NCBI RefSeq assembly: GCF_022436485.1
Contig: NZ_JAKUDO010000001.1
Span: 2,604,001-2,668,000, forward strand
DNA from: Agrococcus sp. ARC_14
GTDB lineage: Bacteria; Actinomycetota; Actinomycetes; Actinomycetales; Microbacteriaceae
Direction of reading: 5' to 3'
DNA length: 64,000 nucleotides
Positions 33,705 to 48,272 of this stretch are shown in pieces. Each line of letters opens with the position of its first letter. Position 1 is the first letter of the stretch. The position numbers and the translations under genes are program-made. The notes beneath the pieces are model-generated. The model had not been told where the DNA came from and ran no database searches. It saw only the letters and a list, made by a program, of their open reading frames with translations.

Positions 33705-35531
<1,827 letters not shown>

Positions 35532-35844
35532 ATGGCCTCCATTGTCCCGCACGCGCGCGCACCCCTCTGCGCTCCCCTTCGAGTGGCGCCTCCCAGCAAC
35601 GAGTGGCGCCTCCCCACATCGAATGGCGCCTCCCAGCAACGAGTGGCGCCTCCCCACATCGAATGGCGCCTCCCAGCAACGAGTGGCGCCTTCCCACATC
35701 GAATGGCGCTCTGCGCCATGAGCCGCCACTCGATCGCGGGAAGCGCCACTCGATCGCGGGAAGCGCCACTCGATCGCAGGAGGCGCCACTCGATCGCGGG
35801 AAGCGCCAATCGATCGCCCGGACGCGGGGTCCGGATGCGGCGGG
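35532..35844. other. Non-coding gap between ispE and the ABC-F gene
   Basis: This 313-nt gap is almost filled by the 240-bp array described next. Outside the array there is only the ABC-F ribosome site on one side and 24 nt before the ispE stop on the other. Open frames crossing it exist on both strands, but the 20-bp unit is not a multiple of three and the frames encode no recognisable protein. Confidence 0.8.
35581..35820. repeat. Array of twelve 20-bp units in two opposed arms
   Basis: The left arm (35581-35720) holds seven 20-bp units beginning GARTGGCGCC, with ends alternating CAGCAAC and CACATC, so that two 40-bp blocks (35601-35640 and 35641-35680) are identical. The right arm (35721-35820) holds five 20-bp units with core GCGCCACTCGATCGCGGG, which is the inverted form of the same GAGTGGCGC core. 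The opposed arms can fold on each other. Twenty bp is close to two helical turns, so every core lies on the same face of the DNA. Not a CRISPR: there are no unique spacers. Confidence 0.9.
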
Positions 35845-36768
35845 TCAGTCGATGAGGCGGGCGCCAGGCACGGGGCCGGTCACCTTGACCGCCACGAGCT
35901 GCGCCGTCGAGAGCGAGATCTGCACCTCGATGGCCGACTCCAGATCGTCGCAGAGGAAGGCCACGGTCGGCCCCGATCCGGAGACGATCCCGGCCAGCGC
36001 ACCCGATCGCTCCCCCAGCTCGAGCGTGCCCGACAGGCGCGGCATGAGTCGCAGCGCGGGCGCCTGCAGGTCGTTCTGCAGCGACTCGGCGAGCATGCCG
36101 GCGTCGCCGGCGCGCAGCGCCTGCAGCACCCGCGCATCCACGGTCGGCACGTCGTGCGCCGGCGCGATGTCGGCGGCGTGCAGCGCGCGGTGCTCGTCGA
36201 GCGCACGGTAGACGTCCGGGGTCGACAGCCCGGCGTCGGCGTAGGCGAGCACCCAGTGGAACTGCCCCTTCGCGAGCGCCGGCGAGAGCTGATCGCCGCG
36301 GCCCGTGCCTATTGCGGTGCCACCCGCGAGCGCGAACGGCACGTCGGCGCCCAGCTCGCGAGCGATCTCGTGCAGCGCCTCCCGACCCAGGTGCAGCCCC
36401 CACAGCTCGTCGCACGCGACCAGCGTGGCTGCCGCGTCGGCGGATCCGCCGCCCATGCCGCCGGCGATCGGCACGTGCTTCTCGATCGAGAGCGCGACGC
36501 CGCCCGTGACGCGGCCTCGGCGAGCGAGCGCCATCGCAGCCCGGATCGCCAGGTTGTCCGCTCCGGTCGAGAGGTGCGCGTGCGGCACCGGGCCCGAGAA
36601 GCGCACCGAGAAGTCGGGCGCCTCGCTCGCCTCCACGAACTCATAGAGGCTGACGGCCTGGTAGGCGGTGGCGACGTCGTGGTAGCCGTCGTCCTGCAGC
36701 GCGCCCACGCCGAGGTGCACGTTGATCTTGCCGGGCGCTTTCGCCCGGACTGTGCTGCCGCGTGCCAC
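35845..36768 (-). CDS. ispE: 4-diphosphocytidyl-2-C-methyl-D-erythritol kinase
   Basis: 307-residue GHMP kinase of the MEP isoprenoid pathway, phosphorylating CDP-ME. The [12 protein letters not shown] substrate block, the ATP loop [17 protein letters not shown] and the C-terminal [13 protein letters not shown] motif are all present. GTG at 36768 is supported by TAGGTT 6 nt upstream. In actinobacteria ispE normally follows rsmA directly; here a DUF4287-like gene and an opposing YjbR gene lie between. Confidence 0.95.
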
Positions 36769-36885: not shown

Positions 36886-37290
36886 ATGGCGCATCCGCTC
36901 ATGTTCGACGCCGACGACCCGCTGCTGGCGCGCTTGCGCGAGCTCGCGCTCGCCTTCCCCGGCGCGGCCGAGAAGGTCTCGCACGGCCGGCCCGCCTTCT
37001 TCACGACGAAGGTCTTCGCCTACTACGGCGGCACGACCAAGCAGGAGCACAACGCCGGCCTGCACCCGCCGCGGCTGAGCGTGCTGCTCGAGCCCGACGA
37101 GCGCCTCGCGCTGCTCGACGAGGGTGCGCTGGTGCCCGCCTACCTCGGGCCCTCCGGATGGGTCGCGGTCGACCTGCAGGATCCCGACTGGGTGCGCGTG
37201 GCCGAGCTGCTCGACTCGAGCTTCCGCGTGACGGCGACGAAGCGCCTGGTCGCGGAGCTCGACGCCCGCCGCCCGCACGCCGCCCCCTGA
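36886..37290 (+). CDS. MmcQ/YjbR-family protein
   Basis: 134-residue small alpha/beta protein. The pattern LALAFPGAAEKVSHGRPAFFTTKVFAYYGG followed by PRLSVLLEPDERLALLDEG, YLGPSGWVAVDL and a C-terminal helix is that of the MmcQ/YjbR (CyaY-like fold) family. Its role is unclear; DNA binding has been suggested for relatives. Sits in reverse orientation inside the rsmA to ispE run. Confidence 0.88.
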   Translation: MAHPLMFDADDPLLARLRELALAFPGAAEKVSHGRPAFFTTKVFAYYGGTTKQEHNAGLHPPRLSVLLEPDERLALLDEGALVPAYLGPSGWVAVDLQDPDWVRVAELLDSSFRVTATKRLVAELDARRPHAAP

Positions 37291-37509
37291 CGCGCGTCTC
37301 GCACGCCTCCCCCGGCCCGCGGCTCGCACGCCTCCCCAGACCCGCGGCTCGCAAACATGTGGGCATCTGCGCTCTAGCGTGGCCCGTAGCGGCAGATTGC
37401 CACACATGTGCGGCACGAGCGGGAGCGCGAGCACGAGCGCGAGCACGAACGCGAGGCAAGCGTCACAGCGCAGGGCAGACGGGCACCCGCGCGCCGCAGC
37501 GCGCGGACC
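37291..37509. repeat. Intergenic region with three repeat types
   Basis: Between convergent genes. First, about two and a half copies of a 25-bp unit (GCACGCCTCCCC then CCCGCGGCTC). Second, an imperfect inverted repeat: ACATGTGGGCATCTGCGCT (37355-37373) pairs with 37388-37409 except for three single-base bulges, with a 14-nt loop. Third, a 12-bp-period run of GAGCGC/GAGCAC (37417-37457). The inverted repeat could terminate both genes. Confidence 0.65.
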
Positions 37510-45653: not shown

Positions 45654-47489
45654 GTGACCCTGCCGAGCGACGACGACGCCCCGCGCGCCGCCGTCGCGCT
45701 CGCCGAGGACGACCGTGCCGCACCCTCCCGATCACGGCGCGAGCGGGTCACGGATGCGTATGCGGGCATCGAGCGGCGCCTGCGCGAGCCGCGCATCCGT
45801 CGCACCCTTGAGATCGCGGCGCCCGTCGCCATCGTCGGCATCGCCGCCATCGCGAGGCTGTCGGGCCTCGGCCACCCGCACCAGCTGGTCTTCGACGAGA
45901 CGTACTACGTCAAAGAGGGCTTCTCGATGTGGCAGCTCGGCTACGAGGGCGACTGGAGCGACGACGGCAACGAGCGCTTCGAGGCCGGCGACGCGGGCGG
46001 GCTCTCGAGCGAGCCCGACTACGTCGTGCACCCGCCGCTGGGCAAATGGATCATCGGCATGGCAATGGCCGTGTTCGGCATCGGCGACCCCTTCTGGTGG
46101 CGACTGCCGAGCGCGCTCGCCGGCATCGCGCTCGTCGGGCTGACCTACGCGATCGCGCGCGGCATGCTGCGCTCGATCGCCTTCGCGTCGCTCGCGGGGC
46201 TGTGGATGGCGATCGACGGCTTCGCGATCGTCATGAGCCGCACCGCGCTGCTCGACGGGCTGCTTGCGGTGTTCGTGCTGGCCGGTGCCGGAGCACTGCT
46301 GCTCGACCGCCGAGGTTCTGCCGCGCGCACGGTGCGGGCGCTGGCTGCGGGGCGACGCCGCGGGTTGGCCGCGATCTGGGGCCGGCCGTGGATCGTGATC
46401 GCCGGCGCCCTGCTGGGCGCTGCCTGCGCCACGAAGTGGTCGGGCGCTGCCTTCCTCGCGGCCTTCGGGCTCTGGAGCGTGCTCATGGATGCGCTCGACC
46501 GGCGCCGCGTCGGCTACCGGCACCCGTGGCTCGGCACCCTGCTGCTGCAAGCGCCCGCGAGCTTCGTGCTGCTCGTGGGGCCTGCGGTCGCGATCTACGT
46601 CGCCAGCTTCGCCGGCTGGTTCGACGGCGGCTGGGGCTCGCAGCTCGCGCTGGAGCGCGTCGACCTGCGGTGGGGCGGCCTGCTCGCCTGGGTGCCGCTC
46701 GGCCTGCAGTCGCTGTGGATGTACCACGCCCAGCAGCTCGGCTTCCATGTCGGCCTCGACAACGACCACCCCTACCAGTCGCCCGCGATCGAGTGGCTCT
46801 GGCTCGGACGCCCGACGGGCTTCGAGATGGTCGACACGGGCACCGGCGTCTGGTGGATCACCGCGCTGCCCAACCTGGTGGTCTGGTACGGCGGCATCAT
46901 CGCGCTGGGCTTCCTGCTCTTCCACCTGGGCCGCACGCTCGACCGCACCGCCGGCTTCCTGCTGCTGGCGATCGCGGCAGGCTTCGGGCCGTGGCTGGCG
47001 TTCCCGGATCGCACGATCTTCTTCTTCTACGCGATCGTCTTCCTGCCGTTCCTCGTGATCGGGCTCTCGTACGCGCTGCAGATCGCGGTCGGGCGGCTGC
47101 GGCCCGCGGTGCATCGGGCGCGGGCAGCGGCGACGGATGTGAGCACGGACTCCGGCGTCGCTGAGCGATGGGGCACGAACTCCGGCGTCGCTGAGCGATG
47201 GGGCACGAACTCCGGCGTCGCTGAGCGATGGGGCACGGATGCCGGCGTCGCTGATGCCCCCGACGCCGACGCCGCGCTCGACGCCGCCATCGCAGCCGCC
47301 ATCCCCCCGCCGGCTGCCGAAGCCCTGCCCGAGGGCGACGTCGAGCGCAGAGCCGCCGCGTGGGCTGTGATGCTGGTGCTGCTGGTCGCGAGCATCGCGG
47401 TCGCGCTGTGGTTCATGCCCGTGGCGTACGGGATCGCGATGCCGGAGCCGCAGATCCGGCTGCGCTACTGGCCGCCCTCCTGGCCGTAG
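45654..47489 (+). CDS. Protein O-mannosyltransferase (PMT family)
   Basis: 611-residue membrane glycosyltransferase moving mannose from a polyprenyl phosphate onto secreted proteins. The catalytic DE motif is in LVFDETYYVKEG (first extracellular loop), followed by VHPPLGKWIIGMAMAVFG and the NDHPYQSPAIEWLW luminal block; about ten membrane helices. Between the last two helices, residues about 500-530 contain three in-frame copies of SGVAERWGTN from a 30-bp DNA repeat, plus an Asp/Ala-rich stretch absent from ordinary relatives. GTG start. Confidence 0.92.
   Translation: MTLPSDDDAPRAAVALAEDDRAAPSRSRRERVTDAYAGIERRLREPRIRRTLEIAAPVAIVGIAAIARLSGLGHPHQLVFDETYYVKEGFSMWQLGYEGDWSDDGNERFEAGDAGGLSSEPDYVVHPPLGKWIIGMAMAVFGIGDPFWWRLPSALAGIALVGLTYAIARGMLRSIAFASLAGLWMAIDGFAIVMSRTALLDGLLAVFVLAGAGALLLDRRGSAARTVRALAAGRRRGLAAIWGRPWIVIAGALLGAACATKWSGAAFLAAFGLWSVLMDALDRRRVGYRHPWLGTLLLQAPASFVLLVGPAVAIYVASFAGWFDGGWGSQLALERVDLRWGGLLAWVPLGLQSLWMYHAQQLGFHVGLDNDHPYQSPAIEWLWLGRPTGFEMVDTGTGVWWITALPNLVVWYGGIIALGFLLFHLGRTLDRTAGFLLLAIAAGFGPWLAFPDRTIFFFYAIVFLPFLVIGLSYALQIAVGRLRPAVHRARAAATDVSTDSGVAERWGTNSGVAERWGTNSGVAERWGTDAGVADAPDADAALDAAIAAAIPPPAAEALPEGDVERRAAAWAVMLVLLVASIAVALWFMPVAYGIAMPEPQIRLRYWPPSWP
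47151..47256 (+). repeat. 30-bp tandem repeat inside the mannosyltransferase gene
   Basis: Three copies of a 30-bp unit (TCCGGCGTCGCTGAGCGATG + GGGCACGAAC; 47151-47180, 47181-47210, 47211-47240) and half of a fourth. The first two are identical and the third differs only at its end. The unit is a multiple of three, so copy-number change keeps the frame. Confidence 0.92.
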
Positions 47490-47539: not shown

Positions 47540-48085
47540 CTACCGCCACGTCGACCAGTGGCTGCACGGCAGCGTCGAGCCGCGCCGCACGCCCGAGCAC
47601 GGCGGCATCACGGCGGGCGGCTCAGGCTCGATGTCCACCCAGCCGCCGTTCGGCAGCTCTTCGTCGCGGCTGAGCGTCCACAGGTGGGCGGCAGGCTGGA
47701 AGACGTTGGCCAGCACCTCGCAGTCGCAGTAGCCGCCGGCATCTGCGAGGCGCCGCTCGAGCCCGACCGCTCGGGGCGCGATCAGGTCGCGGAAGCGTGC
47801 CGCCAGCCGCAGGTCACCCTGGCAGCCGAAGGCGGTGATGGTGCGGTCGAGGTAGCACCCGAGGCACTCGCGCTCATGCGGAGCCAGCCAGAGCTCCGCC
47901 AGCTCGCGCACATGCGCCTCAGCCTCCGCCTCCGCCATGATCGGCTCGGCAGCGGGGTCGGATCCGGCGGGGTCGGATCCGGCGGCGTCGGATGCGGTGG
48001 ATTCGGCTGCGGTGGATTCGGATGCGGTGGGTTCGAATGCGGTGGAGTCTGCTGCGGTGGATTTGGCTGCGGTGGGTTCGTCCAT
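47540..48085 (-). CDS. DUF2695-domain protein with repetitive N-terminus
   Basis: 181 residues. The central part (ECLGCYLDRTITAFGCQGDL, then RFRDLIAPRAVGLERRLADAGGYCDCEVLANVF) is the DUF2695 domain with its conserved Cys residues (CxxC and CDC). The first 45 residues are imperfect five-residue repeats (STAxx) encoded by eight 15-bp units at 47960-48079. An alternative ATG at 47938 would omit the repeats; neither start has a good ribosome site. A short Cys/Trp-containing tail follows the domain. Function unknown. Confidence 0.72.
   Translation of the reverse strand: MDEPTAAKSTAADSTAFEPTASESTAAESTASDAAGSDPAGSDPAAEPIMAEAEAEAHVRELAELWLAPHERECLGCYLDRTITAFGCQGDLRLAARFRDLIAPRAVGLERRLADAGGYCDCEVLANVFQPAAHLWTLSRDEELPNGGWVDIEPEPPAVMPPCSGVRRGSTLPCSHWSTWR
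47960..48079 (-). repeat. Eight 15-bp repeats
   Basis: Eight consecutive 15-bp units of the form GGATGCGGTGGATTC with 1-5 differences, at the 5' end of the DUF2695 gene. In-frame expansion or loss would change the N-terminal tail by five residues at a time. Confidence 0.85.
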
Positions 48086-48272
48086 GCCGCGCACCGTGCC
48101 ACAGCGGCCCCCGCCCGCGCGCGACCCGCGCACCGACCTGTGCACAGCGCCGAGCCCCGCACCGCACCCGCAACGCACCCCCGCCGCACCGCCTCCCCCG
48201 CCGCACCGCCACCGCCGCCGCACCGCCACCGCCGCCGCACCGCCACCGCCGCCGCACCGCGCCACACGCGAA
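48086..48272. repeat. Low-complexity intergenic DNA
   Basis: Contains an 18-bp-period tract built of CCGCACCGCCACCGCCGC (about 48184-48259) that leads into the long palindrome at 48273. I see no gene, promoter motif or RNA in it. Confidence 0.6.

Follow-up and report, generated by a model that had tools for sequence, protein, structure and literature searches.

Phased repeat arrays with opposed arms in Agrococcus and a candidate AbiEi-Vsr nuclease partner

The 64,000-nucleotide stretch of Agrococcus sp. ARC_14 analysed here (the window; G000:C1:2604001-2668000 of the 3.27 Mb source genome, G000) carries at positions 35581-35820 an array of 20-bp units, set in two arms of opposite orientation between an ispE-like gene and an ABC-F-like gene. 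We favour, with some reserve, the hypothesis that this array is the dispersed non-coding partner of a distant AbiEi-Vsr nuclease, in a pairing similar to that of REPINs with RAYTs but with an unrelated enzyme. The candidate partner gene (G000:C1:1876873-1877754, 293 amino acids) lies 0.76 Mb from the window array and is itself enclosed by an array locus, occupying the place between the arms where solo arrays show a short gap. Its predicted model has an AbiEi-antitoxin-like N-terminal part fused to a C-terminal domain similar to Vsr and homing endonucleases.

Arrays and nuclease genes in Agrococcus

A search of 24 Agrococcus genomes gave 96 nuclease matches, 72 of which were checked for flanking repeats, the remainder being weaker matches or second pieces. 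All 14 orthologues of at least 72% identity have 20-bp arrays beside them, on both sides in 13 according to Tandem Repeats Finder (TRF); the 14th, L080, has a three-unit right arm close to a contig end. Arrays are found beside one of two relatives at 60-63% identity and beside six of the 17 at 43-57%, with both sides occupied in four, three of which belong to a single genome, G007. Below 38% identity some repeat of about 20 bp is present in 3 of 39 cases, none of array type. Since close orthologues are all flanked and distant relatives are not, the linkage follows one nuclease clade; in G000 itself one of four members of the nuclease family is array-flanked.

Genome-wide, a two-unit pattern with up to three mismatches finds 65 phased pairs in G000 against one for the reversed control. 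These pairs fall into ten loci, of which C1 carries eight and C3 two. Two opposed arms of at least three units are present at eight of them (L017 has its forward arm, while the inverted side of L015 is a single two-unit pair; L016, with one weak pair and no arm, was excluded from the count). Phased matches for at least one of three cores (GGCGC, GGTCA, GGCCA) occur in 19 of the 24 genus genomes, the other five (G005, G006, G012, G019, G022) showing zero or one stray match. A nuclease relative of at least 44% identity is present in all 19 genomes with phased matches and in one of the five without (Fisher p 0.0005, relatedness ignored). A three-unit GGCGC pattern is found in 4 of 299 genomes of the family, all four Agrococcus (one of 85 genera). 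Arrays lie near contig ends in G001 (C5, C7) and G002 (C5, C16, C18), where the assemblies probably break at them, and one forward arm of G003 (L069:621-1509) reaches 45 units.

Both nuclease alignments (18 and 29 members) conserve residues D224, Y236, G238 and H241 without exception, and E235 is invariant in the 18-member one; alignment A2 omitted three of 32 proteins, L231 for its stop codon and L232 and L265 by choice. The AbiEi-like fold is recognised in the predicted N-terminal part, while Pfam AbiEi_1 gives a weak match in one of 29 members. Fold comparison also matched RAP-domain proteins, MenT toxins, TnsA and others. The PADLOC search returned two weak domain matches and the NCBIfam search none, and no relative of the nuclease was confirmed in viral contigs. 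The neighbours at L012 are an ANTAR response regulator and a thioesterase.

Core switching between species

The core flanking the nuclease at the 14 orthologue loci is of the GGCGC type in nine, GGCCA in two (G001, G015) and GGTCA in three (G009, G017, G004). Dispersed arrays usually carry the nuclease-flanking core of their own genome, exceptions being G010, G016, G017 and G023. Counted on both strands with up to two mismatches and given as GGCGC/GGTCA/GGCCA, the last two counts overlapping, dispersed matches number 59/4/1 in G000, 137/0/0 in G020, 89/0/0 in G013, 0/48/4 in G004, 1/95/36 in G009, 8/24/77 in G001 and 0/7/28 in G015.

A two-gene tree of ispE and the ABC-F gene was built for 20 genomes (G005, G012, G019 and G022 left out). 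The GGCCA genomes G001 and G015 stand in it next to G002, which has GGCG (support 99, 100), and the GGTCA genomes are scattered (support 72, 96, 30). In the nuclease tree the three GGTCA nucleases cluster (support 93; G004 as an N-terminal fragment). Since the GGTCA genomes are scattered and their nucleases grouped, the core seems to follow the nuclease lineage, with modest tree support.

Three intergenic sites that have a common gene on each side differ in core between species. The ispE site carries GGCGC in G000 and GGTCA in G004, and site L066/L308 carries GGCG in G010 and GGTCA in G009. At the third, L068/L309, GGTCA in G004 faces a G001 array with one GGCCA arm and one GGCGC/GGCTC arm, beside which G001 has an extra gene.

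Related repeats in other genera

Outside Agrococcus, the scan of genome contigs found 82 relatives of the nuclease, of which 80 were kept. In Sinomonas flanking arrays are present at 11 of 12 nuclease loci, on both sides in nine (TRF), with periods of 19, 21, 22 or 32 bp. Their core is mostly GGGGTCA, with variants GGGGTCCC (L248), GGGGTCTC (L251, L256) and GGAGTCAC (L267), and the Sinomonas GGGGTCAC resembles the Agrococcus GGTCA type. S. mesophila has 202 copies of the pattern GGGGTCACNTCCC and the L257 genome has 110, reversed controls giving 0-2; six other genomes searched hold 5 to 45 copies, the own unit of some departing from the pattern. Among the S. mesophila matches listed (100 of 202), same-strand spacings of 21 bp occur 36 times, of 42 six times and of 43 twice, and arms are ordered inward in 14 cases against two outward.

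The Arthrobacter/Pseudarthrobacter group has doublets instead of arms. All five genomes searched hold 17-50 copies of TGACCCCGCGTTG (controls 0-1), and in the four fully listed ones 92 of 130 copies make 46 doublets of 63 bp, all in the same order, with an offset of 50 in 41, 49 in four and 48 in one. In L258, L261 and L266 the nuclease gene is flanked by doublets on each side, and partial copies are present at L250 and L274. In the Arthrobacter genome G327, 21 doublets selected by an exact left arm have variable spacers and a covarying inner stem. Their 13-bp ends are identical in 20 of the 21 (L322:1237-1299, 2298-2360 and 19 other places), one end base differing at L330. Over the loci of other genera, flanks share a match of at least 13 bp in inverted orientation in 36 of 64 and in direct orientation in 27 of 64, against 6.5% for flanks of different loci.

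A DnaA-box-like site upstream of the nuclease gene

The motif TTNTCCACA, which we take to be a DnaA-box consensus, is present in the 200 nt before the gene for 8 of 16 orthologues with at least 60% identity, for none of 17 and 4 of 39 genes in the more distant groups, and in none of 1480 background windows. In other genera it is found within 350 nt upstream of 41 of 65 nuclease loci against 3 of 1733 windows. A TTNTCCACA / TGTGGANAA site within 350 nt occurs at 47 of 80 named nuclease loci and within 200 nt at none of 189 other genes, two figures that refer to windows of different length. The site stands, for example, 47 nt before the nuclease match in L073 and 66 nt before it in L249. The site points one way in Agrococcus and the other way in Sinomonas, an argument against reading it as a promoter -10 element. 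Such a site suggests that expression or action of the nuclease may be tied to replication.

The array in the window and the anatomy of its arms

The array and the genes on either side of it are arranged as follows.

35581..35720, plus strand: forward arm, seven units of 20 bp with core GARTGGCGC, the majority of units being CGARTGGCGCCTCCCMRCAW
35721..35820, minus strand: inverted arm, five units of 20 bp, cores inside 35723-35811
35845..36768, minus strand: ispE-like GHMP kinase gene, 3' end 33 bp away from the last inverted core
33705..35531, minus strand: gene of an ABC-F-like two-domain ABC ATPase, ATG about 50 bp past the forward arm

The first-pass annotation of this DNA had described the array, and its coordinates and structure hold, as do the calls of both neighbouring genes. 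All seven forward units carry GARTGGCGC at strict 20-bp steps (35581, 35601, ... 35701), as it had claimed; no chain in the window is longer than these seven, and the longest in each of 200 dinucleotide shuffles is at most one. Of the five inverted units said to share this core, all set at the same 20-bp steps, three are exact; the first (GAGTGGCGG) and the last (GATTGGCGC) agree once one mismatch is allowed. The picture of twelve contiguous units filling exactly 240 bp is right for the period of each arm and slightly idealised otherwise, the last forward unit having a divergent tail and the last forward core standing 13 bp from the first inverted core. The two identical 40-bp blocks were found at 35600-35639 and 35640-35679. 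Searches of the whole genome and of relatives found the core phased elsewhere and present in relatives, so that neither of two outcomes named beforehand as telling against the array, a core random and unphased elsewhere or absent from all close relatives, occurred.

The statement that no standard feature type describes the array appears fair. A CRISPR array is ruled out by anatomy, the units being of 20 bp with tails shared along an arm instead of unique spacers, and no GC hairpin followed by a U tract was found in 35400-36000 for loops of 3-8. Four Rfam matches to the array with E up to 1 stay below the gathering score; they comprise three miRNA precursor models (best E 1e-8) and one Burkholderia sRNA, and are taken as a reflection of the foldback. 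Open reading frames cross the array in several frames. A phage or plasmid origin was rejected, the array being unmatched in 50,697 phage and 72,556 plasmid records. Other tandem repeats of the window lack the array core: 37265-37353 (25 bp), 47143-47254 (30 bp), 47952-48080 (15/45 bp) and 48156-48260 (17 bp).

The stretch between the forward arm and the ABC-F ATG is alike by eye in most Agrococcus genomes compared. At the place of the array in the ispE-ABC-F gap, L172, L177 and L187 (G001, G015, G003) have a different hairpin with TCTCAACGTGNCAGGTG, found at 3 of 310 loci searched, and L180, L181, L182 and L185 (G009, G016, G011, G010) show other inverted repeats by eye, of GAGAGGTAGC type (about 19 bp) and GACCGGGGCG type, possibly further core types. 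No empty site is readable that would mark a clean insertion at ispE, the place being filled in relatives by different sequence, by hairpins recognised by eye or by a small gene.

Over 74 loci, some one-armed or armless and some (notably of Sinomonas) picked for hits on both strands, adjacent opposite arms face inward in 48 cases and outward in two, both of which include an arm of 3-4 units. Flanking genes of solo arrays are tandem at 24, convergent at 14 and divergent at 4 of the 42 loci with both flanks called (five more lack such calls), and the nearest stop codon is at most 50 bp from the array edge in 31 of 38 loci with a neighbouring 3' end. The long RNA foldback proposed in the first-pass annotation can form on paper (folding z -12), while selection for it is unlikely. 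In 29 loci from six genomes the variable parts of units are alike within an arm (0.84 and 0.79), whereas arms of the same locus score 0.59 against 0.61 for arms of different loci, a value of 0.59 being reached in 1578 of 2000 permutations. Arms of one locus being no more alike than those of different loci, they seem to evolve separately and pairing is not kept; this absence of covariation does not support a selected foldback in Agrococcus, and the arms of G001 are mosaic. The parallel proposal of a phased protein-binding array draws indirect support from the Agrococcus period of 20 bp and the Sinomonas periods of 19, 21, 22 or 32 bp, which are near two or three helical turns, 19 fitting less well.

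Proposed mechanism and alternative explanations

AbiEi binds 23-bp inverted repeats. In the mechanism that we propose, the AbiEi-like N-terminal part of the nuclease would bind the units of about 20 bp cooperatively on one face of the DNA, which the predicted fold, the phasing and coevolution make the most likely mode of binding. The Vsr-like domain would then nick or cut at inward-facing units, cutting being most likely in view of the conserved residues. Repair of the breaks, with slippage, would expand and homogenise the units of an arm, while the core might be spread across the genome by gene conversion or by rare copying, much as RAYTs do for REPINs; that the repeats may be mobile we infer from the dispersed doublets with near-identical ends. 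The host would tolerate or use arrays placed just beyond gene ends. A wider hypothesis, which we put forward tentatively and with more doubt than confidence, is that of a new class of intragenomic repeat in Micrococcales, in which a domesticated AbiEi-Vsr nuclease, its gene bearing the DnaA-box-like site, would read phased opposed arrays, cut in step with replication and drive concerted replacement of the core genome-wide whenever its specificity shifts.

Several observations weigh against a nuclease partner. G023 has dispersed matches (8/27/12, in the order used above) and no array flanks its closest relative (62%); this genome slightly lowers our confidence in the favoured hypothesis. In G010 (36/43/9) and G016 (19/57/0) the nucleases are GGCG-flanked, yet GGTCA matches outnumber GGCGC ones, and G017 (38/47/11) combines a GGTCA-flanked nuclease with 38 GGCGC matches. 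In G004 the nuclease gene (L090, G004:C1:216615-217492) is broken, but the arrays on its two sides and the dispersed GGTCA arrays persist, and G019, whose genome is 65% complete, has a 56% relative and no arrays. Some nodes of the trees behind the core switches are weak. Direct flank matches in other genera are common like the inverted ones, no tandem array was found near the nuclease gene in 6 of 6 Cryobacterium relatives, and in Curtobacterium other tandem repeats lie near 6 of 12 loci with no clear opposition. Neither target duplication nor a clean empty site was seen, and that array sites are shared and doublet spacers vary argues against recent copying.

The arrays might instead be purely regulatory or chromosome-organising sites, coated by the AbiEi-like protein as an insulator or as a barrier to forks or transcription, with a nuclease domain that has no part in this or works at other places. 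The strict helical phasing, the inward arrangement of the arms, the proximity to stop codons (31 of 38) and the sites common to several species agree with this, and AbiEi-type proteins are autoregulators (PMC7319586). We nevertheless deem it unlikely, D224, Y236, G238 and H241 of the nuclease domain being invariant and the Arthrobacter doublets, whose ends are nearly identical although their sites are scattered, having the look of dispersed copies. Arrays acting as RNA, as long hairpins at gene ends that terminate transcription or stabilise mRNA, would leave the nuclease linkage and the core switching unexplained; the Agrococcus arms do not covary, those of G001 are mosaic and no U-tract terminator with a loop of 3-8 was found at the window array. 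An RNA role would account for the location past stop codons, the folding z of -12, the covarying inner stem of Arthrobacter doublets and the other hairpins seen by eye in the ispE-ABC-F gap of several genomes without the array, and we hold it improbable.

It is very improbable that the arrays are unlinked selfish or slippage-driven repeats tolerating gene ends, for which the nuclease locus would be just another occupied site. Arrays flank 14 of 14 orthologues, and also paralogues and Sinomonas relatives in other contexts, and the core tracks the nuclease clade, even if homogenisation within arms (0.84, 0.79) fits slippage, several species have sites in common and G023 has arrays without a flanked nuclease.

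Comparison with known systems

No link between these arrays and this nuclease was found in the titles and abstract starts listed from the open-licence literature, and a description elsewhere is possible. AbiEi and Rv2827c antitoxins, autoregulators of type IV toxin-antitoxin systems, differ from the protein proposed here, which is fused to a nuclease and has many dispersed arrays instead of one promoter. Vsr-like nucleases such as I-Bth0305I, DUF559 and REase_MTES_1575 differ also, the present gene standing between opposed arrays with no interrupted host gene or intron seen; the MTES_1575 founder is a domain within a large HEPN fusion protein, according to PMC3710099. The system would suggest a role for some nucleases of the DUF559/MTES_1575 type.

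The closest parallel is REPIN-RAYT, in which, according to PMC3116915 and PMC8049555, extragenic inward-facing doublets are dispersed, repeats surround the partner gene and their sequence is tied to the partner. The arrays and doublets described here are likewise dispersed, inward-facing, placed around a partner gene and tied to it by their core, extragenic position being judged from called genes in Agrococcus and Sinomonas. The Arthrobacter form, an inverted pair around a variable spacer, is a doublet of nearly fixed length, where Agrococcus has arms. In contrast to the Y1/HUH tyrosine transposase of REPINs, the linked gene has a predicted Vsr-like fold with an AbiEi-like part, and the RAYT family PF01797 is found in none of the 24 Agrococcus genomes (the control matched in 5 of 14). 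The Agrococcus and Sinomonas repeats also differ in being phased tandem arms of up to 45 units, without covariation between arms in Agrococcus, and G007 has three array-flanked relatives, not one. The pairing would function like REPIN-RAYT but is not a member of it by the PF01797 test. The array-nuclease system, whose mechanism is still a proposal, has no component with a known homology to REPIN-RAYT.

REPINs are a leading example of repeats that a domesticated enzyme maintains as a population in bacteria, and PMC8049555 treats their benefit as open. Another such example from actinobacteria, based on an unrelated enzyme, would permit comparison with them. In nature one core (GGCGC, GGTCA or GGCCA) takes the place of another at sites that species have in common, in parallel with the nuclease clades, which opens specificity and concerted evolution to direct tests in environmental bacteria. 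If true, the wider hypothesis put forward above would mean that the REPIN-RAYT way of life had been invented a second time, independently and with a restriction-like nuclease.
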